Shown: positions 14,182 through 38,706 of the stretch, one piece after another | Numbering within the stretch: the stretch's first letter is position 1 | Layout: the number at the start of each line of letters is the position of its first letter | Assembly (NCBI RefSeq): GCF_022836435.1 | Contig: NZ_BQXC01000001.1 | Coordinates: 2,182,121-2,246,120 of the forward strand | Length of the DNA stretch: 64,000 bases | Origin: Nitrosomonas sp. PY1 | Lineage (GTDB): Bacteria; Pseudomonadota; Gammaproteobacteria; Burkholderiales; Nitrosomonadaceae | Reading direction: 5' to 3' | Program-made: the position numbers and the translations under genes | Notes under the pieces: generated by a model | Database searches by the model: none | The model's input: only the letters and a program-made list of their open reading frames with translations | Told to the model about the DNA's origin: nothing

Positions 14182-14299
14182 GAGAAACACACAATATGGA
14201 TAGCATGCATTTTATAAAATGCAAAACATTAACCGAAATTTGTAACATTAGCCATGCGGCAAATTGTCTCAGGAAAATTAATACGCTGATAGATATCGA

Positions 14300-15529: not shown

Positions 15530-15584
15530 TAAAATGTAGATACGCTGATTATTGTGTACTTTATTTAAGAGCAAATTTCTAATT

Positions 15585-15698
15585 ATGTGGTGGTTACTAG
15601 TAGTCGAAGCAGCACTCGCGGCTGGATTGTTTATTTTTATCATTTGGTGGACAATGTTTTCTGGCAAGAAAAAGAAAGATGATGAAAATAACTCATAA
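15585..15698 (+). CDS. Small single-pass membrane protein, 37 residues
   Basis: A short open frame beginning MWWLLVVEAALAAG, with one strongly hydrophobic helix (about residues 2-24, ending IIWWTM) and a charged tail (GKKKKDDENNS). This hydrophobic-then-Lys/Asp-rich layout fits an inner-membrane protein with a cytoplasmic C-terminus. It lies in the divergent gap between mltA and the Nif3-like gene, about 56 bases from the mltA start, with only a weak ribosome site (AAGAG). Function is unknown. Composition argues for real coding, but I cannot test conservation. Confidence 0.5.
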   Translation: MWWLLVVEAALAAGLFIFIIWWTMFSGKKKKDDENNS

Positions 15699-15880
15699 TT
15701 CCCAATAACTTGAAACATACTACTATCTCGCTGCTCATAGCCAGCAGTCTGTTAAAGAACGCATTCGAAACAACGATACCAGGCAGAAATAGCTGAAACG
15801 CAGTGTATCTATCAAATGAGCATTTAGGATCATTTTTCAATACCGAGATAAAATATAATTGTAGTCAAACTCGATGCGCA

Positions 15881-16627
15881 TCATACTGGATTATCAATAT
15901 CAATAAACTGATGTTGTATCGAAAATTTTTGTGCCACGTGATCGCCAAGCGCCTGTACGCCATAACGCTCCGTCGCATGATGTCCTGCGGCAATAAATGC
16001 GATTCCGGTTTCGCGTGCTAGATGTACGTTATGTTCAGAAATTTCCCCAGTAATATAGGCATCGACATCTTGTTTCACTGCTGCCTCAAAATAGTTTTGT
16101 GCACCACCCGTGCACCAAGCGATACGGCGAACGATCATATCCGCACTACCGATAACTTGAGGTTTTCGTAATAGTGTTCGAGATATTTTTTCTGTTAACG
16201 CTTTTAACGTAATTGCCCTATTTAGCTCTCCATGAATCATAATGTCCTGTCCACCAAAGCGCCCCGTTTCAATAAACCCCAACTTCTTCCCTAAAAGGGT
16301 ATTGTTGCCGAATTGCGGATGCGAATCGAGCGGCAGATGATAAGCCAATAAATTGATTTGGTGCGCCATTAACAAGCTGATTCTGCGATGTTTCACGCCA
16401 ACAATCCTGGCATCCTCATTGCGCCAAAAATAGCCATGATGCACCAGAATCGCATCGGCTTTAGCGGCAATAGCCGCTTGCAAAAGATCGACAGAGGCCG
16501 TTACACCGCTAACGATATTTTGAATTTCGGGGCGCCCTTCCACTTGAAGCCCATTTGGGCAATAATCCTGGAAGCGATGAATGTCTAATAATTCATTCAG
16601 GTACTTTTCCAACTCATCGCGATGCAT
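15881..16627 (-). CDS. Nif3-like dinuclear metal-centre protein (DUF34/YbgI)
   Basis: A 248-residue NIF3 family protein. Metal-ligand segments are visible: LVHHGYFWRNE (His-His), the DSHPQFGNN turn, and AAGHHATERYGVQ with the C-terminal His and Glu. AAGGAG lies about seven bases before the ATG. Members resemble GTP cyclohydrolase I type 2-like proteins but the reaction is unsettled. Divergent from the HtrA gene, a neighbour relationship frequent in proteobacteria. Confidence 0.9.
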   Translation of the reverse strand: MHRDELEKYLNELLDIHRFQDYCPNGLQVEGRPEIQNIVSGVTASVDLLQAAIAAKADAILVHHGYFWRNEDARIVGVKHRRISLLMAHQINLLAYHLPLDSHPQFGNNTLLGKKLGFIETGRFGGQDIMIHGELNRAITLKALTEKISRTLLRKPQVIGSADMIVRRIAWCTGGAQNYFEAAVKQDVDAYITGEISEHNVHLARETGIAFIAAGHHATERYGVQALGDHVAQKFSIQHQFIDIDNPV

Positions 16628-16706
16628 ATGGGCTCCTTTCTATGCTGCACATAAAATTTGATATACAGCAATGACAGTTTGTTTCATTTAGGGAGGTAAA
16701 GTATTT

Positions 16707-17846
16707 ATGTATAAACATTGGTTAATTTTCACACAAAGTATCACTGTGTTGCTGGCCATTTTTTTTATCGTTTCATCCTTGCGTCCGGATTTGCTATCCT
16801 GGCGACCACGTGGAGAAGTAGTTGTCATCCGAGAATCAACGCCCACGCCCAGTAACGACCGTACCGACAGTTATGCCAAAGCCGCGGAAGTAGCCATGCC
16901 CTCGGTAGTCAATATTTTTACCAGTAAAGAAATTAAAGTTCCTTCGCATCCCTTACTCGATGATCCCGCACTACGAAAATTCTTTGGTGATCCATCAGAA
17001 TCGCGCGCGCGGCGCCGGGCAAATTTGGGTTCTGGAGTTATCGTCAGCTCCAATGGTTATATCTTAACGAATCATCATGTCATTGAGGCAGCGGATGAAG
17101 TTGAAATCGCTATGATTGACGGGAGAAAAGCAAAAGCGACCATCATCGGCACAGACCCTGAAACAGATCTGGCGGTATTAAAAATTGATTTAAGCAATTT
17201 ACCCGCTATTATTTTTGGTCAGTCAGAACAAGTTAAAGTAGGTGATGTCGTATTGGCGCTAGGAAATCCCTTTGGAGTTGGCCAAAGCGTCACGATGGGC
17301 ATTGTCAGCGCACTCAGCCGCAATCATGTGGGTATCAATACCTTTGAAAACTTTATACAAACCGATGCAGCCATAAACCCAGGTAATTCGGGTGGCGCAC
17401 TCACCGACACAGCGGGTAATTTAATTGGTGTGAATACCGGCATCTACTCGAAAACAGGAGGTTCATTGGGTATCGGCTTTGCAATTCCAGCTCATGTAGC
17501 CAAACAAATCATGGAACAAATTATTGAATCCGGTAGCGTCATTAGAGGTTGGCTAGGTGTAAGCATGCAAGATATGACTGAAGAATTGTCTGAGTCGCTA
17601 AATATAAAACAAGTCTCAGGATCGCTGGTTGCAAGCGTGCTTAAAGATGGTCCTGCTGATAAAGCAGGCATCAAACCGGGCGATGTGCTTATTGCTGTTG
17701 AATCGCAGCCGGTTAAAAATGCTGCGGAGATACTCAACTTGGTTGCCGCTCTGGCGCCCGGAAAAACAGTCAATATAACGGTTTTACGCAATAAAGAAGA
17801 GAAGTCCATTCCCATTACCGTCGGTGTACGGCCAAAGCAAAAATAG
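16707..17846 (+). CDS. HtrA/Deg-family periplasmic serine protease (DegS/AlgW-like)
   Basis: A 379-residue trypsin-like protease. A single N-terminal membrane helix (about 5-25) suggests anchoring rather than export. The catalytic triad can be read as His in TNHHVIEAADE, Asp in TDLAVLKID and Ser in NPGNSGGAL (about residue 228). One PDZ domain follows (about 275-370: GWLGVSMQDM, GPADKAGIKPGDVLIAVE). A single PDZ and membrane anchor fit DegS/AlgW, which cleave anti-sigma factor RseA/MucA. DegQ-like general proteolysis is the alternative. GGGAGG provides a strong ribosome site. Confidence 0.9.
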   Translation: MYKHWLIFTQSITVLLAIFFIVSSLRPDLLSWRPRGEVVVIRESTPTPSNDRTDSYAKAAEVAMPSVVNIFTSKEIKVPSHPLLDDPALRKFFGDPSESRARRRANLGSGVIVSSNGYILTNHHVIEAADEVEIAMIDGRKAKATIIGTDPETDLAVLKIDLSNLPAIIFGQSEQVKVGDVVLALGNPFGVGQSVTMGIVSALSRNHVGINTFENFIQTDAAINPGNSGGALTDTAGNLIGVNTGIYSKTGGSLGIGFAIPAHVAKQIMEQIIESGSVIRGWLGVSMQDMTEELSESLNIKQVSGSLVASVLKDGPADKAGIKPGDVLIAVESQPVKNAAEILNLVAALAPGKTVNITVLRNKEEKSIPITVGVRPKQK

Positions 17847-17857
17847 CCTAAAAAATA

Positions 17858-19522
17858 ATGAATAAAAACAATCTAACAGAACAATCATCATCCGGCTTTG
17901 TCACGAAGCTATTTTCTTGGTTGGATACAAACATTCTCTCGCTAGGAAGGGAAATGCGCTTGTCCTACCTACCACCTTTGATGGTATATGTGGCCGCAGG
18001 CATTTCAGGACTGACAGGCATTGTTGGTACCTTTTACGTCAAGGAGAAGCTTGGACTTACACCAGAATTTCTCGCCATGCTAGGTTTCTGGATGATGTTA
18101 CCTTGGGCAATAAAAATGCCTTTAGGACACTTAGTTGATTTGATTTGGCGCTGGAAAAGTATATTAGTGTACCTCGGTGCCAGCCTGATTATGCTCAGCT
18201 TACTGATCATGATCGGCTTGTTGGGACATACAGAAGCTATGGCTGCTAAAGCGCCAGTAGAAACATGGTATATCTTGTCAGCATTGCTAGCACCGGTTGG
18301 TTATGTGCTACAAGATGTCGTAGCTGATGCCATGACAGTCGAAGCGGTACCGCGTATAGATGAGAACGGTGAAAAATTTAACGCCGAAAAACGCAAACTG
18401 ATGCACGTAACCATGCAAACATTAGGTCGTGTAGCGATTATCGGAGGTGGCTTGCTGGTATCGGTCGCGAATGTACTTTTATTACGCGATGCCAATACAT
18501 TATCAGAAAACGAGAAAGAGGGTGTGTATCTATTAGTCTATCAATTGGCTTTAATCATTCCATTAATTTCAATTATGGGCACTATGTTAGCGTCATGGCT
18601 TCACTACCGTGAGCGCAAGCGTCTACATTATCTGGGACATAGTCACCAAGAAATTGCCACACTATTAGACTCTCATACTGAAACACCTCCTATCAATTGG
18701 TGGATCTTAGGAGGTGGATTGGCTTTCACCGTGATGTCTTTAGCTGTAGGCATAAGCCGTATTCCGGCTGGAGAAGAGATCGTTTTTGTTGTATCGATGA
18801 CAATTATAATTTTCTTGATGTGGCGCTTAACCCAAGAATTGGAACCAGAAGCCCGTAACGTCTTAGTCGGTACAGCCATTATGATATTTGTATTCCGGGC
18901 CATTCCAGGACCCGGTGCCGGTTCCACTTGGTGGATGATCGATGAATTGGGATTCGACCAACAGTTTCTGGCTGTTCTGTCCTTAGTGGGTGCAATATTG
19001 ACCTTGTTCGGTATGTTTATTTTCCGCCGCTTCATGGCAGAGCGCTCGATTGCTTATATTATCGTGTTTCTCACCGTTGTCGGTACCTTTCTAACGTTAC
19101 CAATTATAGGTATGTTTTTTGGTTTACATCACTGGACAGCCTCGTTGACCGGTGGCTTTGTAGATGCACGCTTTATTGCATTGATCGATACCGCGCTGGA
19201 ATCTCCATTGGGACAAATTGCCATGATCCCGATGTTGGCTTGGATTGCCAATTCTGCACCGGATAAGCTAAAAGCGACCTTTTTTGCCGTCATGGCCTCG
19301 TTCACGAATTTAGCATTATCGGCCTCGCAGTTAGGAACAAAGTACCTGAATCAGTTTTTTGATGTAAAGCGAGAAATTAAAGATAGCCTTACAGGCCAAG
19401 TCACGATGCCAGCCGATTATAGCGAACTAGGCCAGTTATTGATCACCGCAACGATCATCGGTTTTGTCATACCGTTAATGACAATCTTAATCATCAAACA
19501 TACACGTTTTCAAAGCGCCTAA
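17858..19522 (+). CDS. MFS-type transporter, folate-biopterin (BT1)-like
   Basis: A 554-residue polytopic protein with about 12 hydrophobic segments. It has the feel of the BT1 folate/biopterin family: GFWMMLPWAIKMPLGHLVD near the second helix pair and a long loop region YVLQDVVADAMTVEA carrying an acidic motif. It starts 12 bases after the htrA stop, so co-transcription is likely. No substrate can be inferred; some bacterial BT1-like proteins are annotated only by fold. Confidence 0.6.
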   Translation: MNKNNLTEQSSSGFVTKLFSWLDTNILSLGREMRLSYLPPLMVYVAAGISGLTGIVGTFYVKEKLGLTPEFLAMLGFWMMLPWAIKMPLGHLVDLIWRWKSILVYLGASLIMLSLLIMIGLLGHTEAMAAKAPVETWYILSALLAPVGYVLQDVVADAMTVEAVPRIDENGEKFNAEKRKLMHVTMQTLGRVAIIGGGLLVSVANVLLLRDANTLSENEKEGVYLLVYQLALIIPLISIMGTMLASWLHYRERKRLHYLGHSHQEIATLLDSHTETPPINWWILGGGLAFTVMSLAVGISRIPAGEEIVFVVSMTIIIFLMWRLTQELEPEARNVLVGTAIMIFVFRAIPGPGAGSTWWMIDELGFDQQFLAVLSLVGAILTLFGMFIFRRFMAERSIAYIIVFLTVVGTFLTLPIIGMFFGLHHWTASLTGGFVDARFIALIDTALESPLGQIAMIPMLAWIANSAPDKLKATFFAVMASFTNLALSASQLGTKYLNQFFDVKREIKDSLTGQVTMPADYSELGQLLITATIIGFVIPLMTILIIKHTRFQSA

Positions 19523-28197: not shown

Positions 28198-28965
28198 ATG
28201 CATAAAAATTATCCATTTATCCCTTGGATCGGAGGAAAACGAAGACTGGCCAAAACCATTCTGCCTTTATTTCCAAAACACACCTGCTATGTTGAACCCT
28301 TTTGCGGTGCAGCCGCGCTATTCTTTATGAGGGACCCGGCTGAAGTTGAAGTGATAAACGACATTAACGGAGAACTGGTGAATATGTATCGGGTGGTCAA
28401 ATACCACCTGGATGAGTTTGTTAAGCAGTTTCGTTGGGCGCTAGTAAGCAGGGAGATGTTCGGTTGGTTAAATGTTACGCCGTGTGAAACGCTCACAGAT
28501 ATCCAGCGCACCGCACGATTCTATTATTTGCAGAAGATGTCGTTTGGAAGCAGGGTTTCCAGCCGCACTTTTGGCATCGCAACAACGAGCGGTCCAAAAT
28601 TGAACCTGCTTAGGTTAGAGGAGGATTTAAGCCAAGCACACATCAGGTTGTCACGGACATTTATCGAGCATCTTGCATGGCAGGAGTGCGTATCCAAGTA
28701 TGATCGGGATCACGCGTTATTTTATTGCGATCCGCCGTATTACGGCACAGAGGGCTATGGCGTCGAGTTCGGGTTAGATCAATACCACCAATTGGCAGAG
28801 TTGGCTAAATCCATCGAAGGAAACATGATTATTTCAGTAAACGACATCCCAGAAATGCACGAAGCATTCGATGGACTGACTATTAATACAGCGGAAGTTT
28901 TCTATGCGGTTGGCGGCGGTAATAAAAGAGCAAAGCGCAGCGAATTGATTATCAGAAATGTTTAA
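28198..28965 (+). CDS. dam: DNA adenine methylase (Dam/D12 class)
   Basis: A 255-residue class alpha N6-adenine methyltransferase. The SAM site FIPWIGGKRRLAKTI plus VEPFCGAAALFF and the catalytic ALFYCDPPYYGTEGYG (DPPY) are intact. A GAAAGGAATATG ribosome site precedes it. It has no linked restriction gene and sits between debris and an integrated element, as phage-borne orphan methylases often do. Target site (GATC or other) cannot be read from sequence. Confidence 0.88.
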   Translation: MHKNYPFIPWIGGKRRLAKTILPLFPKHTCYVEPFCGAAALFFMRDPAEVEVINDINGELVNMYRVVKYHLDEFVKQFRWALVSREMFGWLNVTPCETLTDIQRTARFYYLQKMSFGSRVSSRTFGIATTSGPKLNLLRLEEDLSQAHIRLSRTFIEHLAWQECVSKYDRDHALFYCDPPYYGTEGYGVEFGLDQYHQLAELAKSIEGNMIISVNDIPEMHEAFDGLTINTAEVFYAVGGGNKRAKRSELIIRNV

Positions 28966-29091
28966 AAATTAACCGTTAAATCAGTAAATCCCCAGTACCA
29001 AATAAAACGAAAATTAGTACCAAATAGCGCGGCACGTTACAGAATGACACAATTTTGACACAAGTGGAAAATTAGAAGAAGACAAAATCAA

Positions 29092-29155
29092 TATAACTCA
29101 TTGATTTTATGGTACCTACACCAAGAATCGAACTCTGGACCTTCTGATTACAAAT
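29092..29155. repeat. Left attachment-site repeat (partial tRNA-Thr copy)
   Basis: Matches 38613-38676 over 64 bp with four differences. It contains the TpsiC-arm-to-anticodon part of tRNA-Thr but diverges at AAATTC, so it cannot make a tRNA. Confidence 0.85.
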
Positions 29156-29274
29156 TCTAAAATGTAGTGTTTTACATTGTTTTAATATTTTTGAATAACC
29201 GGTAATGTCATTGTTTTGTATTGATTTTATATATTAGGTTGTTTTAAACTCTTACCCATAGTTTTACGCCTACT

Positions 29275-29304
29275 GTCTACATAGTGTCTACATGGCGCCT
29301 ACAT
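29275..29304. promoter_or_regulatory. Three 11-bp-spaced GTCTACAT repeats (integrase arm-type sites?)
   Basis: GTCTACAT at 29275, GTCTACAT at 29286 and GCCTACAT at 29297 lie exactly 11 bp apart, 18 bp before the integrase ATG. The same motif occurs as a pair near the other end (38568-38586). Integrase or excisionase binding is inferred. Confidence 0.55.
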
Positions 29305-29321
29305 GAAAGGAGATTGAAGCA

Positions 29322-30593
29322 ATGACCACACCCCAAACGCTTCCACAAAAAATCACGAAATCCTATGTAAACAAATTGTCTACACCAGAAACTGGTCAAG
29401 CCTTTGTTCGTGATTCGGAACTAAAAGGTTTTGCGGTGCGCGTTACTTCTGCCGGCGCAAAATCATTTATTCTCGAAAAGAGAATTGATGGCAAAGTGAA
29501 ACGACTGACGCTAGGCCGCTACCCTGAATTAACTGTTGAGCAAGCCAGAAAGAAAGCGCATAAATTACTTGGCCATATTGCCATTGGCCGGAATCCTGTC
29601 GCTGAAAGAAAGCAAGAATCCTTACAAGGCACGACACTGAAACAAGCTTTCGATGATTTTGTTAAAACGCGAAAAAATCTCAAAGAACGGACGCTCTATG
29701 ATTATCGGCGAGTGATGTCTATTATTTTTACTGATTGGCAGGATAAGCCAATGATTAATATCAATAAGGATATGGTTAGCAAGCGCCATAACAAAATAGG
29801 TTCAGAGCGAGGCGAAGCCTATGCCAATCTGTCGATGCGTTTTTTACGCGCCTTGTTTAATTTTGCCATTGCGCAATACGAAGATGGCAACGGCAAATCC
29901 ATTCTGCATGAAAACCCGGTTGTCCGCCTTACCCAAACTCGCGCCTGGTATCGAGTAGATCGCCGCCAGACTGTTATTAAGCCACATGAACTCAAACCCT
30001 GGTTCCAAGCAATCATGAACTTAAAAAATGATCCGCTCAGCCAAAACCGTGAAACCATTCGGGATTATTTACTGCTAGTAATCTTTACAGGATTAAGACG
30101 AGAAGAAGCTGCCAGCATGACCTGGGATAATGTCGACCTACAATCCAAGACCCTGAAGGCAACCGATACAAAAAATCATTTGGATCACACCCTGCCCTTA
30201 TCTGATTTTCTTTACGACTTGTTACAGCAAAGAAAAAATAACGCGACCAATGAATACGTATTCCAAAGAGCCAGCGGAACCGGATATGTTTCCGAGCAGC
30301 GCAAGCAAATCGCCAAAGTCATCAAGGAATCTGGTATTTCATTCACGATTCATGATTTACGCCGTACATTCTTAACTGTAGCGGAAAGTCTCGATATCTC
30401 AGCCTATGCAGTGAAACGTTTGGCCAATCACAAAATGAGCAACGATGTTACAGCCGGGTACATTGTTGCCGATGTAGAACGGCTACGACAGCCTATGCAA
30501 AAAATTACCGACTATATTCTCAAGTGTGCTGGTTACAAACCATCAGCGACAGTAACTGATTTCCCTATAAAGAACTTACAGGGCAATACTTAA
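29322..30593 (+). CDS. int: Tyrosine recombinase / integrase
   Basis: A 423-residue P4-type integrase. The N-terminal arm-binding (DUF4102-like) domain shows RDSELKGFAVRVTSAGAKSF and RLTLGRYPELTVEQARKKA. A SAM-like core-binding domain follows (about 105-190). The catalytic domain (about 220-405) has Arg in FTGLRREEAASM, His-x-x-Arg in TIHDLRRTFL, the second His in LANHKMSND and the nucleophile in TAGYIV (about residue 379). GGAG lies before the ATG. It sits beside the left attachment repeat and reads into the element. Confidence 0.93.
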   Translation: MTTPQTLPQKITKSYVNKLSTPETGQAFVRDSELKGFAVRVTSAGAKSFILEKRIDGKVKRLTLGRYPELTVEQARKKAHKLLGHIAIGRNPVAERKQESLQGTTLKQAFDDFVKTRKNLKERTLYDYRRVMSIIFTDWQDKPMININKDMVSKRHNKIGSERGEAYANLSMRFLRALFNFAIAQYEDGNGKSILHENPVVRLTQTRAWYRVDRRQTVIKPHELKPWFQAIMNLKNDPLSQNRETIRDYLLLVIFTGLRREEAASMTWDNVDLQSKTLKATDTKNHLDHTLPLSDFLYDLLQQRKNNATNEYVFQRASGTGYVSEQRKQIAKVIKESGISFTIHDLRRTFLTVAESLDISAYAVKRLANHKMSNDVTAGYIVADVERLRQPMQKITDYILKCAGYKPSATVTDFPIKNLQGNT

Positions 30594-30622
30594 AATATAC
30601 GTCATTGACGGATTTGTTAATT

Positions 30623-30943
30623 GTGTTTACTATTGTTGAAACTGAAATTTTTGAACGGCTGTGGCCACACTACTGGACAGATCAAGTACATGATGAATTT
30701 ATAACCTTCATTACAGAGAATCCAGAAACCGGTGATGTCGTCAAAGGTTCTGGCGGCATGCGCAAAGTACGCTGGAGTCGAACAGGTTCTGGAAAATCCG
30801 GCGGTGTGCGTGTCATTTATTTTAACCGTCTGGCTAATGGCGAAATCTGGTTGGTCTTTATTTATGCAAAAAACAAACTGGACTCAATCAGCGCAAAGAC
30901 TTTAAAGGAAATAAAACATGAAATCGAAAAAACCATTGACTGA
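30623..30943 (+). CDS. RelE/HigB-type toxin
   Basis: About 106 residues of the HigB2/RelE family. I chose the GTG at 30623, giving VFTIVETEIFERLW as the family opening; a TTG six codons upstream is also open. The core GGMRKVRWSRTGSGKSGGVRVIYFNR and EIWLVFIYAKNKLDSIS are typical of this mRNA-interferase group. It overlaps the antitoxin gene by 26 bases, toxin first, the order seen in HigBA and NadS-linked systems. Confidence 0.85.
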   Translation: MFTIVETEIFERLWPHYWTDQVHDEFITFITENPETGDVVKGSGGMRKVRWSRTGSGKSGGVRVIYFNRLANGEIWLVFIYAKNKLDSISAKTLKEIKHEIEKTID

Positions 30944-31226
30944 CGTAGAACTGGAAGCATGGGAAAACAGCCGGGACTTAAGCTCTGAGTTACTTGAATC
31001 TGTGCGTCAGATGAAAGCTGGAAAAGGTCGCGTTGTCATGTCGCCGGTCATCTCTGCACGCAAAAAAACGGGACTATCTCAGGCTGAATTCGCCAAACTG
31101 CTAAACGTATCTGTGCGGACATTGCAAGAATGGGAACAAGGCCGCCGTCAACCCAGTGGAGCAGCAAAAACACTGATTACCATTGCCGAACGACACCCTG
31201 ATATTTTGAAGGAAATCGCTGCATAA
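30918..31226 (+). CDS. HTH-XRE antitoxin (HigA/NadS-like)
   Basis: A 102-residue antitoxin. The C-terminal XRE helix-turn-helix reads TGLSQAEFAKLLNVSVRTLQ followed by EWEQGRRQPSGAAKTLI. The N-terminal part (about 1-45) would hold the toxin. Its start lies inside the toxin gene, so translation is coupled. It probably represses its own promoter upstream of the toxin gene. Confidence 0.85.
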   Translation: MKSKKPLTDVELEAWENSRDLSSELLESVRQMKAGKGRVVMSPVISARKKTGLSQAEFAKLLNVSVRTLQEWEQGRRQPSGAAKTLITIAERHPDILKEIAA

Positions 31227-31258
31227 CCTTCATCTCATTGCCACCGCAAAGCGGCTTG

Positions 31259-31431
31259 CCCTTGACAGGCTGCCGCCGCCCAAGAAAATACTAACTGAGG
31301 GATTGAGGCACTGGCGTTTTTATATTCCTTCTGTTCCCACTTCAAAGTACGTCTGATTCTTCCAGACCAATCCACAAAACCTCAATCCTTCATACCAAAC
31401 CGCACTTCGGGCGGCGGCAGCCTGTCAAGGG
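31259..31431. repeat. Large nested inverted repeat (23-bp outer arms, 9-bp inner arms)
   Basis: Perfect 23-bp arms (31259-31281 and 31409-31431), GC-rich against an AT-rich background, enclose perfect 9-bp arms GGATTGAGG/CCTCAATCC (31300-31308, 31380-31388). A small hairpin GTCTG/CAGAC (31351-31367) sits at the centre. The outer stem would extend (TTGCCACC...) but for a 15-base insertion in the left arm carrying its own CCGC-AAA-GCGG hairpin. It may be a replication-origin fold, a structured RNA, or the end repeats of a lost insert. No open frame lies inside. Confidence 0.7.
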
Positions 31432-31524
31432 TGGCAAATCAAATACCAAATGCAATTTTCTCAAGTGTGGAGGCCCTTAGCCGTCAATTGAATATATTCA
31501 ATTACCACCGCAAATAAACCCGCT

Positions 31525-32196
31525 ATGTTTCTCGATGATAACCCAGATTATCAAACAGTCTGGCAATTAGCCCATATCTGGGTTGATGCCGAACCAGACG
31601 AAACCGATACCAGCGCGATTTCCCCCAAGCTTAGAGAACATATTATTCGGCTAATGCTTGCCATACGTAATAGAAAGATTTCTGCAAGAACCCGCAAACG
31701 ATCAATTTTTATTGATGATTCCATTATCTCTCTGATAGCAGATATTCCTCATTATCTAAAAACCCTGAACTGCTTATTAAAAGATGCTATTAATAAAGCC
31801 TATCTGGATTCGCTGTATGTCAAGCGTGAAGAAGTAATTGATTTGTGCATCAGATCTCATTACGACCCACCGTCTTGCTGGATGCCCAAACATCTACCTG
31901 ATGGACAAATAATTACGAAGGAAGCTAAAAATTACCGGCCAGCTAATGAAATAGAAGATAGGATTCGCTGCCAAGCAATAGCTAGTGCGTTATGGGAGCT
32001 TGATTCGACTATTCATCCGATCCATATAGTTCGATCAAAAATAATTCAGCAAATTGGCAATGGCAGAACTTATGATGATGAAACGGTCAAGGAATGGATT
32101 AAAAACGTTGATCCACAAAAGAAGCGCAAAAAAGGCGCTCCTCCAAAGGTTCAATATAAAATTGAACTGATAAAAGATCCTCAGCTTGAAGATTAA
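31525..32196 (+). CDS. Conserved-looking protein of unknown function on the element
   Basis: A 223-residue, probably cytoplasmic, protein with no signal or membrane helix. It is Asp/Glu-rich at the N-terminus and ends in a basic stretch (PQKKRKKGAPPKVQYK). The middle (EVIDLCIRSHYDPPSCW, ANEIEDRIRCQAIASALWEL) looks helical. Position between toxin-antitoxin and AlpA/replication genes suggests a role in element biology, but I recognise no family. Confidence 0.65.
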   Translation: MFLDDNPDYQTVWQLAHIWVDAEPDETDTSAISPKLREHIIRLMLAIRNRKISARTRKRSIFIDDSIISLIADIPHYLKTLNCLLKDAINKAYLDSLYVKREEVIDLCIRSHYDPPSCWMPKHLPDGQIITKEAKNYRPANEIEDRIRCQAIASALWELDSTIHPIHIVRSKIIQQIGNGRTYDDETVKEWIKNVDPQKKRKKGAPPKVQYKIELIKDPQLED

Positions 32197-32345
32197 CAGC
32201 GCAATTAATTGTTATTTGATTTTAGTCTGAAGACGCCAAGCCACATCGCCACTCACTTTAGAGATCTGCCATTCCTGAGGGAGACTTTTAATTACCCCTC
32301 AGTCAACTGACCCTTTTTTATTTCTCGGTGAGTTGCAGGATGATC

Positions 32346-32372
32346 AATTCCATTTCAATCACAAATGGAATT
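32346..32372. promoter_or_regulatory. Operator-like perfect palindrome before alpA-like gene
   Basis: AATTCCATTT (32346-32355) and AAATGGAATT (32363-32372) are perfectly complementary with a 7-base spacer. It ends four bases before the chosen ATG at 32377 and swallows the upstream ATG at 32365, which favours the downstream start. Confidence 0.6.
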
Positions 32373-32376
32373 AATC

Positions 32377-32571
32377 ATGCATGATCTTTTACTCACTACT
32401 AAACAAGCTGCACAAATCTTAGGCGTAAGCACCGCATTTCTGGAACGAGACCGCTGGGCCGGGGCGCGGGTGCCCTTCGTCAAGATAGGCTCCCGAGCAG
32501 TTCGATATCGTCATAGCGATCTGCTTGCCTATATTGAATCCTGCACACATTATTCAACTAGCCAGTACTGA
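32377..32571 (+). CDS. AlpA-like / MerR-type excisionase-family DNA-binding protein
   Basis: A 64-residue winged-helix (HTH_17-type) protein reading [20 protein letters not shown] then [19 protein letters not shown]. AlpA proteins activate integrase or act as excisionase; in satellite elements they often govern excision and early genes. I prefer the ATG at 32377 over 32365 because the palindrome overlaps the latter. It precedes the replication gene by 7 bases, so the two are probably co-transcribed. Confidence 0.78.
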
Positions 32572-32578
32572 GATCTTT

Positions 32579-34288
32579 ATGCACTCCTCAGTACATGATA
32601 GCGGGGAACTGTCCAGCCCTGGTGAACGCATCGCCGAACGCATATTAAGCTTACTCGATGAACCCGATGCCAGTGATAAACGCTGGCGTGCGCCAATATT
32701 TCGGCAATTGCCTAAGCGATTCGCAGAGATTGTTGCCTATGACTACAAAGAAACCTATATCTTTGATGGCAGGCAATGCGCCAATCTCGGCTTGCTTAAA
32801 GCCTATGGTGAAATTACCAGAAATAATATACCAATTAATGCTACCGATGAAGATCTGAAAGATTTAGCAAAAAATATTGTTAGAGAAATGCAGCAAATCA
32901 GCCGCATTTATCCAAATCTCGAATACAAACTCTCACGGATGATTCATCGAGCACAGAAGTATGACATTAATAAAGCACTGCTTGAAGACTCAACTATTAC
33001 GGCAATCGGTATTTATACCCGCCTCACCGATGAACTATGGTGGCTACAACGATTGCGCAAGAATCATGCGCAAAAACTAGAACAAGATGCCATACGTATA
33101 GGACTGGTTCATCAGCGAGCAAGCCGGTATGTGAGCGATGAGACATTGACAAGGCGCAGAGAACAGAAAAAACGTATTCGCCGCATTCTCGATGGTTTAT
33201 TCGCCACTAATGAACTCGGCCAGTGCTTCACATTAAGCGAACTTGCCGATTTGGGCCTTGCAAATCCTCGCATTCGTCGCAGCGAATTGATGGTGCGCAT
33301 ATTCGGCTTTGAATACATTGCTAACGAGCTAGGACACATCGGCGAATTCTATACCATCACTTGCCCCTCCAGAATGCATGCCCGGCATTCGGGCACTGGA
33401 AAACAAAATTTAAAGTATGACGGCACCAATCCTAAACAAGCGCAAAAATACTTGAATCAAGTCTGGTCAAGAATTCGCGCCAAACTCAAAAGAGACAATC
33501 TTCCCGTGTATGGCTTCCGTATAGCGGAGCCGCAACATGATGGCACGCCACATTGGCATATGCTGTTATTTATGCCGCCTGAGCAAATAGAAAAAGTTAG
33601 GGAAATCATCCGGCATTATGCCCTGCAAACCAATGGGGACGAGCCCGGCGCCCAAGAGCATCGCTTCAAAGCCATTCCCATCGATAAAAGCAAAGGCACT
33701 GCGGTTGCTTATATTGCTAAGTACATTTCTAAAAACATTGATGGTCACGGTCTTGAACAAGACATCGATGGCAGTCCTATTCAAGAAGCTGCGGAGCGAG
33801 TCGAAGCATGGGCCTCAACTTGGGGTATCCGGCAATTTCAGCAAATCGGTGGCGCGCCGGTTTCAATCTGGCGCGAGCTTAGAAGGATTAGTGAAGCTCC
33901 CGAAGGTGTTCTGGATGAAGCACAACAAGCAGCCGATCAGAGAAAATGGTGGCGATTTGTTCAATTGATGGGAGGAGCTACGGCCAAACGCAAAGACAAC
34001 CCTATCAAACTCATGAAAATCGACTCAAAAGAACGAGGCAAATACGGTGATCCCATCGGCAAGAAAATCTGTGGCGTTGAAACTGAATCTGTCCAGTTAC
34101 CAACACGAATGCATCATTGGCGAGTAACAAAAATTATCAGTGAAACAAATTCGACTGAGCGGCGAAGTGCAAAGCGCCCGAGCGGGAGCGACGCGAGGAG
34201 CGACCGCGAGGCCGCATTTGCGGCGCAGCCGCCTTGGAGTTCTGTTAATAACTGTACGCAAGAAAGTAATAAACTGATAAAAAACTGA
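32579..34288 (+). CDS. P2 GpA-type rolling-circle replication initiator
   Basis: A 569-residue HUH endonuclease of the phage replication gene A family. I chose ATG 32579; an upstream TTG in frame overlaps alpA. The metal-binding HUH motif is [11 protein letters not shown] (about residue 323) and the paired tyrosines are in [12 protein letters not shown] (about 377 and 381, the Tyr-x3-Tyr spacing of P2 A protein). The C-terminal tail is Arg/Ser/Ala-rich and encoded by a strikingly GC-rich tract (about 34150-34240), ending [14 protein letters not shown]. It should nick the element's origin. Confidence 0.88.
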
Positions 34289-34346
34289 AAAGAAGAGGGC
34301 TGCATAACTTTTGCCCCCCTCTGTAACTGCCGTCATTACAATAAAC

Positions 34347-34583
34347 TCAATGCTTCCTATCTATAGGAGGCTTAGGGTCGTTACCATAGCTGTCACTATC
34401 TCGAATAGTCCCATCTTTCCGATGGATTACAACTTCGACTTTCTCGCGCCTTGCCTGCTCACGTGCTCGATCAATTGCTTGCTTTTGTGTATCAACTACA
34501 GAGCCGACGCGTTGCGCATTTTCTTTCCTAGTAGCCCAACCATTTGTATGTGGAACAACATGGATATCACGTTTTTTACTCAT
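34347..34583 (-). CDS. DUF2188 domain protein
   Basis: A 78-residue basic protein of the DUF2188 type: HVVPHTNGWATRKENAQRV, QKQAIDRAREQARREK, VVIHRKDGTIRDSDSYGNDP. The family is small, widespread on mobile elements and chromosomes, and of unknown function. Here it is opposite to the replication gene. Confidence 0.82.
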   Translation of the reverse strand: MSKKRDIHVVPHTNGWATRKENAQRVGSVVDTQKQAIDRAREQARREKVEVVIHRKDGTIRDSDSYGNDPKPPIDRKH

Positions 34584-34655
34584 AATAAATTTCCTATATT
34601 AGTTTCTATAATGTATCAGATAACAGAAAAAAACCGCTATCCGATACATATCAGG

Positions 34656-34826
34656 CTATGCGTAGCTTGAGAGCTTCCAAGTAACTGCTTTGCCAGAATA
34701 AGGCGGCATTGTGTTGTTTTTGGCAATTGGCGCAGTTGTACTAGGTGTTCCAACAACAACCCATACGCCGCTTTCTGGACATTTCTCACCTGTACGAGCG
34801 GTAGTACCTAATGGAGCTTTTTGCAT
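34656..34826 (-). CDS. Small protein of 56 residues on the element
   Basis: A short frame starting MQKAPLGTTARTGEKCPESG, with VWVVVGTPSTTAPIAKNNTM and ending SGKAVTWKLSSYA. AGGAA sits about eight bases before the ATG. It is in the same orientation as the DUF2188 gene 72 bases downstream, so they may share a transcript. The GEKCPESGVW segment resembles a knob of a beta-rich small protein (loosely YjzC-like); that is a weak impression. Function unknown. Confidence 0.55.
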   Translation of the reverse strand: MQKAPLGTTARTGEKCPESGVWVVVGTPSTTAPIAKNNTMPPYSGKAVTWKLSSYA

Positions 34827-34972
34827 ATCACGATTCCTATTAAAAGTTTAAGAAGTAGCGCCTCTAACTAAAAGTTCGGTATAGGAGCACAAATAATATT
34901 ACCATATAAAATTCCTGTTGCAAAATAAAATAAATACGTCTACTCTGAACTTATTTATTGGAGAGTTGGTAA

Positions 34973-35293
34973 ATGGCTTCATTGCTAGGGGAAAAAATTC
35001 GTACGGAAAGAAAGCGTTTGAAACTAACGCTTGAAGAACTTGCAGAAAAAACAAACTCAAGTAAGAGCTACATCTGGGAATTAGAGAATCGCCCTACTGT
35101 AAGGCCTTCAGCAGAAAAAATTGGCAAAATTGCAGAAGTATTCGGGGTTCCTGTGGAGTATCTTTTGAATGATGAGAGGCTAAATCTGACAGAATCGGAT
35201 GTTGATCAAGTATTTTTTCGCAGAATTACTCAGCTTGATCCGGTGAAACGAGCGCAGCTAGAAAAATTCTTAAAGGCAATTGACGATGAGTGA
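34973..35293 (+). CDS. XRE-family transcriptional regulator paired with ImmA-like protease
   Basis: A 106-residue protein with an N-terminal XRE helix-turn-helix (EKIRTERKRLKLTLEELAEK, SSKSYIWELE, FGVPVEYLL) and a short acidic C-terminal dimer/degradation tail. GGAGAG precedes the ATG. The stop overlaps the next gene by eight bases, so the two are coupled. It likely represses its own operon and perhaps element genes; cleavage by the partner would relieve repression. Confidence 0.83.
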   Translation: MASLLGEKIRTERKRLKLTLEELAEKTNSSKSYIWELENRPTVRPSAEKIGKIAEVFGVPVEYLLNDERLNLTESDVDQVFFRRITQLDPVKRAQLEKFLKAIDDE

Positions 35294-36176
35294 CCCCAAG
35301 ACTCCAACTGCTTGGGGTATTCAACTATCAAAATTGTGGTTGCTGTGCGAGAAAAGCTTCCCTGTCGATGTAAAGCAAATTGCACTCGAGGTGACTAAGA
35401 CCAGATTTTCTGATCCTATCGGGATTATAAAAGGGCACAATATTTCTGGTGTTGATGGAATGTTATCTAAGCGCAAAAAGGGGGACTGGTGCATTTCATA
35501 TGATGAAACTGTCAACATTCCTGGAAGAATTAATTTTACTCTTGGACACGAGTTTGGCCATTATCTACTGCATCGTAAAAATAGAGAAAATGGTTTTCGA
35601 TGCAGCCAAGAGGAAATGCTTAATTACGAAAGTGGAGAGTCAAGGAAATTTGAATCGGAAGCAAATAAATTTGCTTCCTATTTGTTAATGCCGGCATCTG
35701 ATTTCAGAGATCAAATCAATGGGCAACTTGTCACTTTAGATTTGCTAGGGCACTGTGCTAATCGTTATGGCACTTCATTTACGGCCACAGCACTCAAATG
35801 GATTGAGCTTACCGAGCAAGCTGCGTTGTTAGCGGTAGCACGTGATGGCTTTATTTGCTGGTCTTATCCGAGTCGTCGAGCACGTCTTCTTCATGCTAAT
35901 TTGCCGCCCGGAACACCAGTACCGCAATCATCACTTGAGCGACTGAATACTGCTTTTGATGTTAACCAGAAAAATCACGGCTTTCGTGTTCGCCCTGGTG
36001 TCTGGCATCCCGAATTAGAAGCTGAAGAATTTGTAATAATTTCTGATCATTTCGACATGGCTATTTTCTTAGTGCAGTTTCCATACTCTGGAATGGTTGA
36101 GCAAATGGAAGAAAAAGAATCTGATGCATTCACATTCTTAGTCGATAGATCCGCAGGATTTAATTGGAAAAAATGA
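35286..36176 (+). CDS. ImmA/IrrE-family metallopeptidase
   Basis: A 296-residue zinc peptidase. The catalytic HEFGHYLLHRK (His-Glu-x-x-His, about residue 88) is intact, with ESEANKFASYLLMPASDF supplying the downstream Glu. I chose ATG 35286; a TTG two codons earlier is open. ImmA cleaves the ImmR-type repressor in ICEBs1; related HTH-peptidase pairs (COG2856) also behave as toxin-antitoxin or stress switches. The remainder (about 180-296) is less conserved and may sense a signal. Confidence 0.86.
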   Translation: MSDPKTPTAWGIQLSKLWLLCEKSFPVDVKQIALEVTKTRFSDPIGIIKGHNISGVDGMLSKRKKGDWCISYDETVNIPGRINFTLGHEFGHYLLHRKNRENGFRCSQEEMLNYESGESRKFESEANKFASYLLMPASDFRDQINGQLVTLDLLGHCANRYGTSFTATALKWIELTEQAALLAVARDGFICWSYPSRRARLLHANLPPGTPVPQSSLERLNTAFDVNQKNHGFRVRPGVWHPELEAEEFVIISDHFDMAIFLVQFPYSGMVEQMEEKESDAFTFLVDRSAGFNWKK

Positions 36177-36446
36177 TGTGTGCTTTTTACCTCGTACCCC
36201 CGTACTCTGGAAAGCAGTAGCCTTATGATTTTGTTACGGTAAATTTGTTCGTCAATGTCTATATAGTATTTGCATCAGTGTGAATTGATTTTAAGATTTA
36301 TTGCAACTTGCTGTTTATGTGGCGCTGCTGGGCTTTTAATTTTTAACATTGACAGCAACTCATCAACTGAATACTATAAGTAGCACATTGCTACTACTAA
36401 TTTCACAAAATTACCGCATTAAACATTGATTTTTGGAACATAGAGC

Positions 36447-37340
36447 ATGAATGAAACAAGACAAGCACTCGATTTATTTGATACAGATAGTACACTTCTT
36501 GACGCTCAATGGACTGAAAACACTAAAAATCGTTGCGATTTACATGTCGGTGATGCGCGTCTTCTTCTAAAGCATATGTCTGATGGGTATTTCAATTGCA
36601 TCGTAACTTCTCCCCCATATTGGGGACTACGGGATTATGGAGTTGAAGGACAGATAGGCGCAGAAACTACTGTGGATGAATATATTGCAGATCTAGTACT
36701 TCTGTTTCGTGAAGCTAGACGGACTTTGTCCGATGATGGCACCCTGTGGTTAAACATTGGGGACAGCTACACATCGGGGGGGCGCACTTGGCGTGACGCC
36801 GACTCAAAAAATAAAGGTCGAGCGATGGGATACAGAGCTCCTACTCCAGAAGGACTCAAACCCAAAGACTTGATTGGCATCCCTTGGAAGCTGGCTTTTG
36901 CGCTCCAAGCTGATGGCTGGTATCTCCGCACAGACATCATATGGAATAAACCTAATTGTCAGCCTGAGAGCGTAAAGGATCGTCCGACTCGCTCTCACGA
37001 ATACGTGTTTCTTTTTTCGAAATCTGAAAAATATTACTATAACTGGCAAGCAGTCATGGAACCAGCATCCAGTCTGAAACAGGAATCAAAGAATCGCCGC
37101 ACCGTTTGGAATATTACAACTGAGCCTTATCTTGGTAGTCATTTTGCGGTATATCCTCGAGCCCTCGTGCGCCTTTGTGTGATTGCAGGTTCCCGTGAAA
37201 AAGGCCGCGTCCTAGATCCATTCTTTGGTACAGGCACAACGGGGGTGGTTTGTAACGAATTGAACAGAGATTGTGTTGGGATTGAACTGAATGCTGAATA
37301 TGCAGGATTGGCACGCGAACGTCTGCTAAAAGGTTGCTGA
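36447..37340 (+). CDS. Type II DNA methyltransferase, N4-cytosine class (beta), partner of SmaI-like enzyme
   Basis: A 297-residue methyltransferase with class beta motif order: catalytic motif IV CIVTSPPYWGLRDYG near residue 55 and the SAM site DPFFGTGTTGVVCNELNRDC near 257-276. The Ser-Pro-Pro-Tyr form is usual for N4-cytosine enzymes. It is convergent with, and overlaps by 15 bases, the restriction gene. By analogy with SmaI it should protect CCCGGG, which is inferred from the partner. Its own promoter must lie in the 270-base AT-rich gap upstream. Confidence 0.85.
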   Translation: MNETRQALDLFDTDSTLLDAQWTENTKNRCDLHVGDARLLLKHMSDGYFNCIVTSPPYWGLRDYGVEGQIGAETTVDEYIADLVLLFREARRTLSDDGTLWLNIGDSYTSGGRTWRDADSKNKGRAMGYRAPTPEGLKPKDLIGIPWKLAFALQADGWYLRTDIIWNKPNCQPESVKDRPTRSHEYVFLFSKSEKYYYNWQAVMEPASSLKQESKNRRTVWNITTEPYLGSHFAVYPRALVRLCVIAGSREKGRVLDPFFGTGTTGVVCNELNRDCVGIELNAEYAGLARERLLKGC

Positions 37341-38084
37341 TCCAAAGGCCCAAGTTGCATGAACTTTACAAAGATTTTTTCGTAGCCCCTTGATCTGGAG
37401 TTTACGTTCAGTCCCGCCATCGAAATAAAGAGCATATTTCAATTGCCCGGCAGCCTCCCTGACATAGCCGTAACCAGGTTTAGGATTCTGCCTACTGTCT
37501 TCGCGAATTTCAAGCTGACAGTTTGATGCTTCAACCATCAATGCTTTTGGAATCTCTACAAGTTCATAAAGTACATGGCAAGGGTCTATATCGAGACACC
37601 GCAGTGTGAATATGCGTGCGTAACTTTGCATGTGTTCAAGAAAAAGATCACGCAGTAAGTGAAGCTTCCATTCGCCCTTGCCAAGTTCCATCCACTTGCT
37701 GATGTGAATCGAATCTACTTTAATATTAGCTGCTGCTTCGGTTTTTAGGCTAACTGGCGTACCATCAATGGTTATGTCATGGCCGCGATTAGTTCTACTC
37801 TTCACGAGTTGTGCAGAAACGCCAGAATCATTAAGTGAGGCTTCAAATGCAAATTCAAAACGATCTTTACTCAATGCCTGGCGACTTCCCATGTGATGAA
37901 TCAGGAGACGGTCACCAAGATTATCCAACACTGCTTGCGTAACGATATCCGAATCTGAAGCTCGCCAGAATTTGTGTGGTACTCCTAAAGCTAAAATTGT
38001 TGCTTTAATCCATTGTAGCTGTGTTGGTGTGAGGCGGCGTAGTGCGTCGACAATTTCACCAATTTCTTTTTCAGTGATATTCAC
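37326..38084 (-). CDS. Type II restriction endonuclease resembling SmaI
   Basis: A 252-residue enzyme. Segments such as GDRLLIHHMGSRQALSKDRF, GHDITIDGTPVSLKTEAA, SKWMELGKGEW, YELVEIPKAL, PKPGYGYV and LYFDGGTERKLQIK match what I remember of R.SmaI at collinear places, and length is close (about 247 for SmaI). The PD-(D/E)xK-type core is plausibly Asp103 in GHDITID with Glu/Lys around LKTEA (113-117). It overlaps the controller gene by four bases (ATGA). Specificity CCCGGG is inferred, not shown. Confidence 0.82.
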   Translation of the reverse strand: MNITEKEIGEIVDALRRLTPTQLQWIKATILALGVPHKFWRASDSDIVTQAVLDNLGDRLLIHHMGSRQALSKDRFEFAFEASLNDSGVSAQLVKSRTNRGHDITIDGTPVSLKTEAAANIKVDSIHISKWMELGKGEWKLHLLRDLFLEHMQSYARIFTLRCLDIDPCHVLYELVEIPKALMVEASNCQLEIREDSRQNPKPGYGYVREAAGQLKYALYFDGGTERKLQIKGLRKNLCKVHATWAFGSATF

Positions 38085-38347
38085 TCATCAAGCTCCGTCT
38101 GCGAGCTATTTGATGGGTTTTCGCATTTGGTGAGTAATTTAGGAACGCTTATGCCTAAAGTTTCCGATAAAACCTCAAGCGTACTGAGAGTGACGTTCCG
38201 CTCATGACGTTCAACTGACCCAATGTATGTACGATGTAAACCGCATTGTTCAGCCAATTCTTCTTGAGAAAGTCCTTTTTTCTTTCGAAATAGTTTGATG
38301 TTCTCCGCAAGAGTCCCGCGAAGAGTGTCACTCGATTTTCTGACCAT
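38081..38347 (-). CDS. Restriction-modification controller protein (C protein, XRE type)
   Basis: An 88-residue helix-turn-helix protein: ENIKLFRKKKGLSQEELAEQ, CGLHRTYIGSVERHERNVTL, STLEVLSETLGISVPKLL. Short XRE proteins fused by overlap to a restriction gene are C proteins, which delay endonuclease until methylation is established. It is directly upstream of the endonuclease gene and downstream of two C-box-like repeats. This fits the established C-then-R operon pattern. Confidence 0.88.
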   Translation of the reverse strand: MVRKSSDTLRGTLAENIKLFRKKKGLSQEELAEQCGLHRTYIGSVERHERNVTLSTLEVLSETLGISVPKLLTKCENPSNSSQTELDE

Positions 38348-38392
38348 ACTCTAACCTTACAGCTAATCAGATTCAGATTGTCTGCAAATGAT

Positions 38393-38417
38393 GACCATAA
38401 GTCGACCGACTATAAGT
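38393..38417 (-). promoter_or_regulatory. Tandem C-boxes upstream of the controller gene
   Basis: On the reverse strand ACTTATAGTC (38417-38408) is followed after GGTCG by ACTTATGGTC (38402-38393). This matches the known C-protein operator layout (ACTTATAGTC-type repeats). It sits about 46-70 bases before the C start. Confidence 0.75.
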
Positions 38418-38567
38418 AGCAATTAATACTTCTAAATTTCGGAAAGATGGATAAAGGATGATAAATTGCATCCAAAATAAGATGTGTTGCTGCAGTACCT
38501 TGCTAACAATGATCTTCAACGATGAAAGCTGTAAATTATTTTTTTTATCATTGCTTATTAAGCTAAC

Positions 38568-38586
38568 GTCTACATATTGTCTACAT
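38568..38586. promoter_or_regulatory. Two 11-bp-spaced GTCTACAT repeats at the right end
   Basis: GTCTACAT at 38568-38575 and 38579-38586, same sequence and spacing as the repeats before the integrase, and 27 bp from the right attachment repeat. Probably integrase arm sites. Confidence 0.55.
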
Positions 38587-38612
38587 AGGTATTATACATT
38601 TATAGGATAATT

Positions 38613-38676
38613 TATAACTCATTGTTTTTATGGTGCCGACACCAAGAATCGAACTCGGGACCTTCTGATTACAAAT
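38613..38676. repeat. Right attachment-site repeat within tRNA-Thr
   Basis: Includes 18 bp of 3' flank and 46 bp of the tRNA 3' half up to the anticodon loop. It pairs with 29092-29155. Confidence 0.85.
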
Positions 38677-38706
38677 CAGCTGCTCTACCATCTGAGCTAT
38701 GCCGGC
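38631..38706 (-). tRNA. tRNA-Thr (anticodon UGU)
   Basis: A 76-nt tRNA with encoded CCA. It reads GCCGGCATAGCTCAGATGG at the 5' end, anticodon loop TTTGTAA (TGT at its centre), TpsiC arm GTTCGATTC, and acceptor closing with one G-U pair. The 3' half is the integration target of the element to its left. Confidence 0.93.

Follow-up and report, generated by a model that had tools for sequence, protein, structure and literature searches.

Phage satellites of the Vibrionaceae named PICMI carry, according to the part of their description available to us, int, AlpA, and primase genes and have defense genes near the end formed by the attachment (att) site, and a plasmid-like rolling-circle mechanism has been proposed for them (PMC10803314). 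The I55 islands of Pseudomonas move with a jumbo phage, as recounted in the accessible text of their report (PMC12595487). Some defense islands of E. coli contain an integrase gene but have no known way to move, as stated in the portion of the source at hand (PMC10121019). We analyzed a stretch of 64,000 nucleotides from Nitrosomonas sp. PY1 (contig NZ_BQXC01000001.1, positions 2,182,121 to 2,246,120; hereafter the window), in which a 9.5-kb element occupies positions 29092-38676 next to a tRNA-Thr gene. With a probability of about 0.78, we conclude that this element is a member of a recurring group of small integrative elements that would excise, replicate as rolling circles, carry an exchangeable gene cassette, and move with outside help.

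The element is similar to PICMI in being small, in having no capsid-remodelling genes, and in its order of int, AlpA, and a replication gene, followed by defense genes before the integration site (PMC10803314, as far as available). Of the features by which PICMI are recognized there, an integrase with PF00589 and an AlpA protein (PF05930 or PF12728) are present (PF00589 and PF12728), whereas the DUF3987/DUF5906 primase and integration at fis are both absent. Instead, the element has a GpA-type HUH initiator (PF05840) with an origin of its own, a tRNA target, a backbone protein that we call U, and HigBA, which occurs in some family members. Because two of these features are lacking, the element is not a PICMI by that part of the description; its layout, however, is that of a PICMI with a different replication enzyme. 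The I55 islands likewise have AlpA and an integrase of the tyrosine type, are bounded by direct repeats next to an RNA gene, carry defense cargo that includes a type II restriction-modification (R-M) system, and lack genes for autonomous transfer, but they target tmRNA, have about 18 kb shared by their three islands alone, and have alpA at the 3' end (PMC12595487). Neither 'gpA' nor 'endonuclease' appears in the main text of that report. The I55 case shows that carriage by a phage is possible for an RNA-gene island with a type II R-M system.

Integration of the element is apparent from its ends. Direct repeats of 64 nt (29092-29155 and 38613-38676) are identical at 60/64 positions, lie 9521 bp apart, and enclose 9.5 kb. 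Each repeat comprises the 3' 46 nt of tRNA-Thr plus 18 nt further, and the intact tRNA-Thr(TGT) gene (38631-38706, minus strand) is the integration target. The right repeat forms the attR core as the element-borne copy of the tRNA 3' end. The left repeat, the attL core, is the chromosomal copy pushed aside by the insertion, because the sole difference between the copies outside the tRNA carries the letter found in one empty site (L252). For a search of unoccupied sites, the left flank was joined to the right repeat and tRNA and compared with 20 same-genus loci picked from 61 genomes; in 11 of these the query aligned unbroken across the junction (L224, L240, L252, L254-L258, L264, L265, and L270). 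The chromosomal flank common to these loci is short (≈50 nt; 29042-29091), and two of them (L255 and L265) also contain a second, partial tRNA copy elsewhere. An integrase, repeats of a tRNA 3' end, and an empty site in relatives, by which tRNA-targeted integrative islands are recognized, are thus all present. These results bear out a preliminary description made from the sequence, which had proposed an integrative tRNA-Thr element with GpA-type replication, had listed the repeats and genes found here, and had reported no structural or conjugation genes. The satellite- or plasmid-like nature that it proposed is likewise supported; a satellite in the functional sense would depend on a helper phage for packaging and transfer.

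The integrase (Int; 29322-30593, plus strand, 423 aa) matches PF13356 (Arm-DNA-bind_3) and PF00589 (Phage_integrase). Inside both ends of the element are 9-nt arm-type repeats (TGTCTACAT/CGYCTACAT) with an 11-bp spacing, three on the left (29274-29304, starting at 29274, 29285, and 29296) and two on the right (38567-38586, starting at 38567 and 38578), all on the plus strand, which are putative Int arm sites. Such repeats occur at similar distances in related elements: a 9-mer was common to both arms in 25 of 27 elements, with at least three copies in 15, compared to 56% and 22%, respectively, of 702 mismatched pairs, a null that is not clean, as the motif is common to the family. From the anatomy of the att sites, we suggest that a 9.5-kb circle is released when Int recombines the two tRNA 3'-end copies, and that the AlpA-like HTH_17 protein (32365-32571, plus strand, 68 aa; PF12728, 2.4e-10) is likely to assist as activator or excisionase.

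The GpA-type protein (32579-34288, plus strand; PF05840, 1.9e-86; phrog_91, 1e-169) is a rolling-circle initiator of the HUH class; in an alignment of 10 GpA proteins, the histidines of the HUH motif (HWH) and the two tyrosines of YxxxY do not vary. At the 3' end of gpA is a 25-nt origin motif (CTTGGAGTNCTGTYAATAACTGTAC), with the window copy (CTTGGAGTTCTGTTAATAACTGTAC) at 34233-34257 on the plus strand, and the annotated rep_origin of phage 186 (28576) falls within the same 25-nt sequence with one letter different. We followed this motif through 101 loci, which include seven contigs (L037, L038, L040-L042, L044, and L045) recurring within L061-L140 and thus amount to 94 distinct loci. The motif was found at five or fewer of 25 mismatches in 86/94 (78 at three or fewer, 8 at four or five), and its 13-nt core with one mismatch allowed in 63/94 (70/101 with the repeated contigs counted). 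The core is inside gpA in 46 of these 63 loci, in two different reading frames (30 and 16), and past the stop codon in 17, which implies that it is conserved as DNA. Comparison thus identifies this sequence as the origin, which GpA would nick to drive P2-type rolling-circle replication.

P2-like phages (Peduoviridae), such as 186, are among the closest known systems; 186 and the element both have a GpA initiator, an origin in gene A, and a tRNA att site, and in the 186 record Int arm sites are predicted on both sides in the same numbers (3 + 2) as the arm repeats of the window. GpA of these phages is ≈41-43% identical to that of the element across three quarters of its length. We found nothing in the element that corresponds to the structural and lysis genes of 186 or to its CI/CII and B (Ogr-type) genes. 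Of the features of a P2-like prophage, GpA and the origin are present, and portal, capsid, terminase, and tail genes are not. No match to capsid, tail, terminase, relaxase, or type IV secretion system (T4SS) families was obtained in scans with Pfam (12 element proteins) and PHROGs (10 of these, with the methyltransferase and controller left out). The exceptions were two weak matches of the antitoxin, both of the helix-turn-helix kind: one to phrog_1668 (tail assembly, 1.8e-4), the other to phrog_57 (terminase small subunit, 1.8e-3). Likewise, eight 186 structural proteins had no tblastn match in a 22-kb stretch of the window or in 20 further loci of the 101, seven of which are the repeated contigs. 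Matches were obtained in 2/80 genomic loci (L113 and L133) compared to 60/80 viral loci, and the latter number indicates that the test works, although many genomic loci are short contigs in which a single absence carries little weight. By these scans and the tblastn search, the element has one feature of phage satellites, the lack of a complete virion gene set of its own. P4-like satellites are marked by Psu, Sid, Delta, and the alpha primase; none of these was named among the matches of the element proteins in the general Pfam and PHROGs scans, which included no dedicated search for them.

These comparisons bear on whether the element is instead a P2-like prophage remnant that lost its structural genes and acquired R-M genes. 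GpA and the origin are indeed of the P2/186 type, and one record of 6 kb that consists of P2-like early genes (L059) indicates that such reduction occurs. However, a FastTree phylogeny of 162 GpA proteins placed the window in a set of 55 rows (support 96) that contains no locus with structural genes and is separate from a 57-row phage set (support 99), which contains 48 of the 56 such loci; this tree omits frames shorter than 450 aa, has long branches, and was sampled by similarity to the window. The same gene order with paired att repeats in other genomes also argues against a remnant, and P2 integrases are of another type. Furthermore, the P2 capsid family was found in none of the 61 same-genus genomes, although it was found in the E. 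coli control among 14, and nothing named like U or AlpA is in the annotated 186 genome. We therefore consider a prophage remnant very improbable. Two P2-derived mini-elements, the 6-kb Kosakonia phage Kc166BP and a Klebsiella plasmid of 9.1 kb, resemble the element as GpA-bearing circles without annotated structural genes, but their GpA proteins belong to the phage set of the tree and their remaining genes are P2-like early genes.

GpA was found in 47/399 genomes of the order and, as a whole, partial, or second-family protein, in 38/61 same-genus genomes, 17 of which contain a full-length protein of this type (>850 bits). From a scan of named genomes we took the best 80 of 287 relatives, and a set of 82 (the window, L039, and L061-L140, with L036-L038 and L040-L055 left out) was used for gene content. 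A related Int was upstream of GpA on the same strand in 43/82 loci, mostly from Beta- and Gammaproteobacteria (Nitrosomonas, Nitrosospira, Nitrosovibrio, Methylovorus, Methylophilus, Methylophaga, Pseudohongiella, Sedimenticola, Thalassotalea, and Colwellia among the named hosts). Flanking repeats with a score of at least 26 enclosed 27 of these 43 loci, giving sizes of 5.8-12.8 kb, and 22 of the 27 are at a recognized tRNA gene (Thr, Leu, Lys, Asn, or Met). As a control, a repeat pair flanking GpA was present in 34/82 loci, compared to a non-flanking pair in 4/82 and any pair in 7/80 viral loci. At loci with at least 4 kb of sequence upstream of GpA (n = 58), 36 had a related Int; AlpA accompanied it in 29 and the origin motif in 33 of these. 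From att onward, the usual order is Int, an optional slot for HigBA or other genes, then U (or its stand-in), AlpA, GpA, the origin, the cassette, and finally the tRNA. From these comparisons, we conclude that there is a recurring family of small integrative elements that consist of Int, U (≈220 aa) or its stand-in, AlpA, GpA, a rolling-circle origin, and a swappable cassette next to the tRNA.

The limits of the cassette are evident from one relative (L069). Its match to the window covers 29105-34272 (81%) and resumes at 38567-38676 with a blank blastn result between, so that a backbone of ≈5.2 kb and the att site are common to both; the end of the match at 34272 implies that the cassette begins just past the origin. 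Related backbones with different cassettes also occupy the tRNA-Thr site in L066, L077, and L082, the last of which (one contig with L037) has the same sspB and GST neighbors as the window. The cassette between origin and tRNA is thus exchanged among elements. The preliminary description had expected relatives to share a block of integrase, GpA, and XRE/ImmA with differing cargo, in a recurring but unnamed class. The class does recur, and no description or name for GpA-bearing islands lacking structural genes was found in the parts of the open-license literature that we searched, but the shared block is Int-U-AlpA-GpA-origin. A place for XRE/ImmA in it was rejected: ImmA had a match among the 101 loci in the window and, weakly, in L140 (32%, 114 aa) and nowhere else, so that XRE/ImmA is cargo, and we found no support for an ImmA switch as a layer of maintenance. 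Two other proposed layers, the toxin-antitoxin pair and the SmaI-like R-M system, are both present, although HigBA is optional in the family (HigB matches in 10/82 loci) and the R-M system is, by comparison with the relatives, one among many exchangeable cassettes.

Many of these cassettes contain defense genes. Besides the window, 26 elements carry Int and are bracketed by repeats. We ran PADLOC on 24 of them (L093 and L111 were left out), with 30 of 63 cassette open reading frames that are 80 aa or longer; the window cassette was covered by Pfam and PHROGs. At E ≤ 1e-5, proteins of 14/24 elements gave matches, which include a PARIS/AbiL-like ATPase (L039), NsnA/PD-T4-2 (L062 and L097), Lamassu LmuB with an AriAB-like ATPase (L066), type IIG R-M (L067), PD-Lambda-4 (L069), Avs2 (L071), CBASS cyclase (L073), CBASS E1-E2 (L080), partial Shedu (L102), Cas9 (L103), a retron-type reverse transcriptase (L104), Upx (L106), and partial SIR2 (L108). 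The cassette of L078 encodes a NACHT protein according to Pfam. Flanking chromosomal proteins gave 5/20 matches, three of them weak. Tested cassette proteins of L065, L077, L082, L096, and L100 were blank in PADLOC and had almost no Pfam match, the sole one being a weak pre-toxin match of one of two L065 proteins. Because of the slot that they occupy, the large proteins among these (L065:7096-12036, L096:11793-15560, L077:6452-8248, L082:11736-13106, and L100:11839-13401) are candidates for new defense systems. In the Methylovorus mays element (L103; 10.1 kb, tRNA-Lys, repeats 47/47), the cargo at 11806-17990 encodes Cas9, Cas1, and Cas2 and includes a CRISPR array in which an exact repeat recurs 22 times (67-nt unit) and one spacer is present twice.

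Cassettes at this slot would often guard the host against phages; that of the window contains a SmaI-type R-M system, which is predicted to restrict incoming DNA. Its three components, all predicted from family matches, are an N4/N6 DNA methyltransferase (36447-37340, plus strand; PF01555), a SmaI-family restriction endonuclease (37326-38084, minus strand, 252 aa; PF17411, 2.9e-73, model positions 3-240 of 240), and an XRE controller (C) protein (38081-38347, minus strand; HTH_3). The remaining cargo consists of a DUF2188 protein (34347-34583, minus strand; PF09954), an XRE regulator (34973-35293, plus strand; HTH_3), and an M78/ImmA-like metalloprotease (35280-36176, plus strand; PF06114) that is not kept in relatives. 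The sequence CCCGGG is the SmaI site. It occurs twice in the 64-kb window, compared to ≈6 occurrences expected from base composition, and not at all inside the element.

Because neither capsid nor conjugation genes were found, transfer would occur by another element or by DNA uptake. One possibility is that the element is an integrative plasmid or mobilizable element that uses conjugation in trans instead of phage particles. GpA is an HUH nuclease, a fold shared with many relaxases. A 9.1-kb plasmid record with a distant GpA (L060) exists, and no terminase, capsid-modifying, or packaging gene was found in the Pfam and PHROGs scans. Yet the same general scans matched no relaxase or T4SS family, by which integrative conjugative and mobilizable elements are defined, in an analysis that did not include a search for oriT, and PICMI, the most similar layout for which the mode of transfer has been tested, is a phage satellite. 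We regard conjugation in trans as rather unlikely, though less so than the other alternatives. Our first guess, at about even odds, is carriage by a helper phage of a kind other than P2-like. More tentatively, and at somewhat less than even odds, we propose a new phage-satellite family of Beta- and Gammaproteobacteria in which a P2-type GpA and origin replace the primase. Carried by helpers that are not P2-like, such satellites would shuttle interchangeable defense systems between tRNA genes, one of these systems being a Cas9 CRISPR system together with its array.

Several observations weigh against membership in a family of mobile, defense-bearing elements. Excision, replication, and transfer of the element are predicted from sequence. 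Phage (324) and plasmid (69) records with a GpA match are all below 60% identity, and the best identity in viral contigs was 44% among the matches listed, so that there is no sign of the element in particles or as a free plasmid. A related Int was missing from 22 of the 58 loci with enough upstream sequence, although relatives with these genes as unlinked chromosomal loci, which the preliminary description had named as contrary evidence, were not seen. The origin motif was absent at five mismatches from 8/94 distinct loci; L050 has seven mismatches, L083 and L095 have shortened genes, and L105 ends with its contig, but L067, L087, L088, and L119 have no evident cause. In L067 (5045-7048), a repeat-bracketed element, similarity to the window ends inside the motif at 34237 and the frame continues. 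The enrichment of defense genes is modest: at E ≤ 1e-40, 11/30 cassette and 2/20 flanking proteins had matches (p 0.03 in a one-sided Fisher test), and at E ≤ 1e-5 the numbers were 15/30 and 5/20 (p 0.07). In addition, some cargo is not defense-like, such as GGDEF/EAL in L112 and a carbamoyltransferase in L132. Finally, the left repeat contains three substitutions in its tRNA part, which implies that the insertion may be old.

These three mutated positions would also be expected of an immobile defense island with Int and GpA as leftovers, and degraded copies do exist, with an Int fragment in L036 and a GpA fragment in L043. However, Int, U, AlpA, and GpA of the window all have open frames, its origin and arm repeats have been kept, and L066, L077, and L082 combine related backbones with different cassettes at this tRNA-Thr. 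We judge this explanation improbable, somewhat less so than a prophage remnant, and favor a mobile element with an exchangeable cassette. Such a family combines a recognizable replication module, the initiator and its origin, with a fixed cassette slot. GpA, origin, AlpA, and Int together give a handle for finding further elements, cassettes of no known kind at the same slot lead to predictions of new defense genes, and the family offers a way to test how defense genes travel in ammonia oxidizers and their relatives.

The backbone includes two further features, a noncoding hairpin and protein U. A region of ≈200 nt upstream of U (31238-31440), with 23-bp perfect arms (31259-31281/31409-31431), forms a long hairpin with RNA z-scores of -9.9 (plus strand) and -7.5 (minus strand). 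It aligns across 11 elements of the Nitrosomonas clade, of which L064 lacks the 3' arm, with few compensatory changes (4/43 pairs), and the repeat was not found in the gammaproteobacterial elements examined. A model of the hairpin matched 16/61 same-genus genomes. The hairpin belongs to the element, because 14/15 strong matches, some of which are sequences used to build the model, adjoin an A1 GpA match, 13 of them ≈1.1 kb upstream (the exception is on contig C16 of genome G418). We rejected the idea that the inverted repeat at 31259/31409 is a dispersed repeat, given these neighbors and a single copy in its own genome. An Rfam scan returned the tRNA and a sub-threshold match at the same place, and no family for the hairpin. 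It is a candidate single-strand (second-strand) origin or noncoding RNA and, speculatively, may aid second-strand synthesis. Protein U (31525-32196, plus strand, 223 aa) is conserved in position and had no family match in Pfam or PHROGs. Its AlphaFold2 model (pLDDT 80, pTM 0.54) gave no meaningful match in a structure search (best E 2.9 in the PDB and 1.1 among viral proteins), and nine U stand-ins from other elements had no detectable homology to U (hhalign probability 0.8%). U and AlpA may act as regulators.

Optional slot 1 of the window contains a HigB/RelE-like toxin (30605-30943, plus strand, 112 aa; PF06296, 6e-7; phrog_5869) and a HigA-like antitoxin of the XRE/MqsA-like type (30918-31226, plus strand, 102 aa; HTH_3, MqsA_antitoxin), which would stabilize the element. 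A second GpA family is present in the genus (L046, L051, L052, and L053, the last at C1:2469000-2488999 of the same genome), with 570-aa reading frames ≈40% identical to GpA of the window and neighbors of 137-139 and 361-385 aa; flanking repeats were not found there. At the tRNA-Thr site of another same-genus genome (G183, L263), the tRNA 3' end is present three times in succession, which suggests a second island in tandem behind the GpA element, and the tRNA-Thr beside sspB looks like an integration hotspot. In genome G420, two partial copies of tRNA-Thr enclose a GpA copy (C13:356901-366401), although the tRNA-Thr/sspB site on C10 is empty; the C13 copy possibly marks a secondary integration site. 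Left of the element, a D12 methyltransferase unit (28198-29042) has an insertion-like, sharp end at ≈29042 that matches C1:711294-711658 of its own genome (93%) and other genomes, and this unit appears to be mobile DNA in its own right, adjacent to the element but separate from it.

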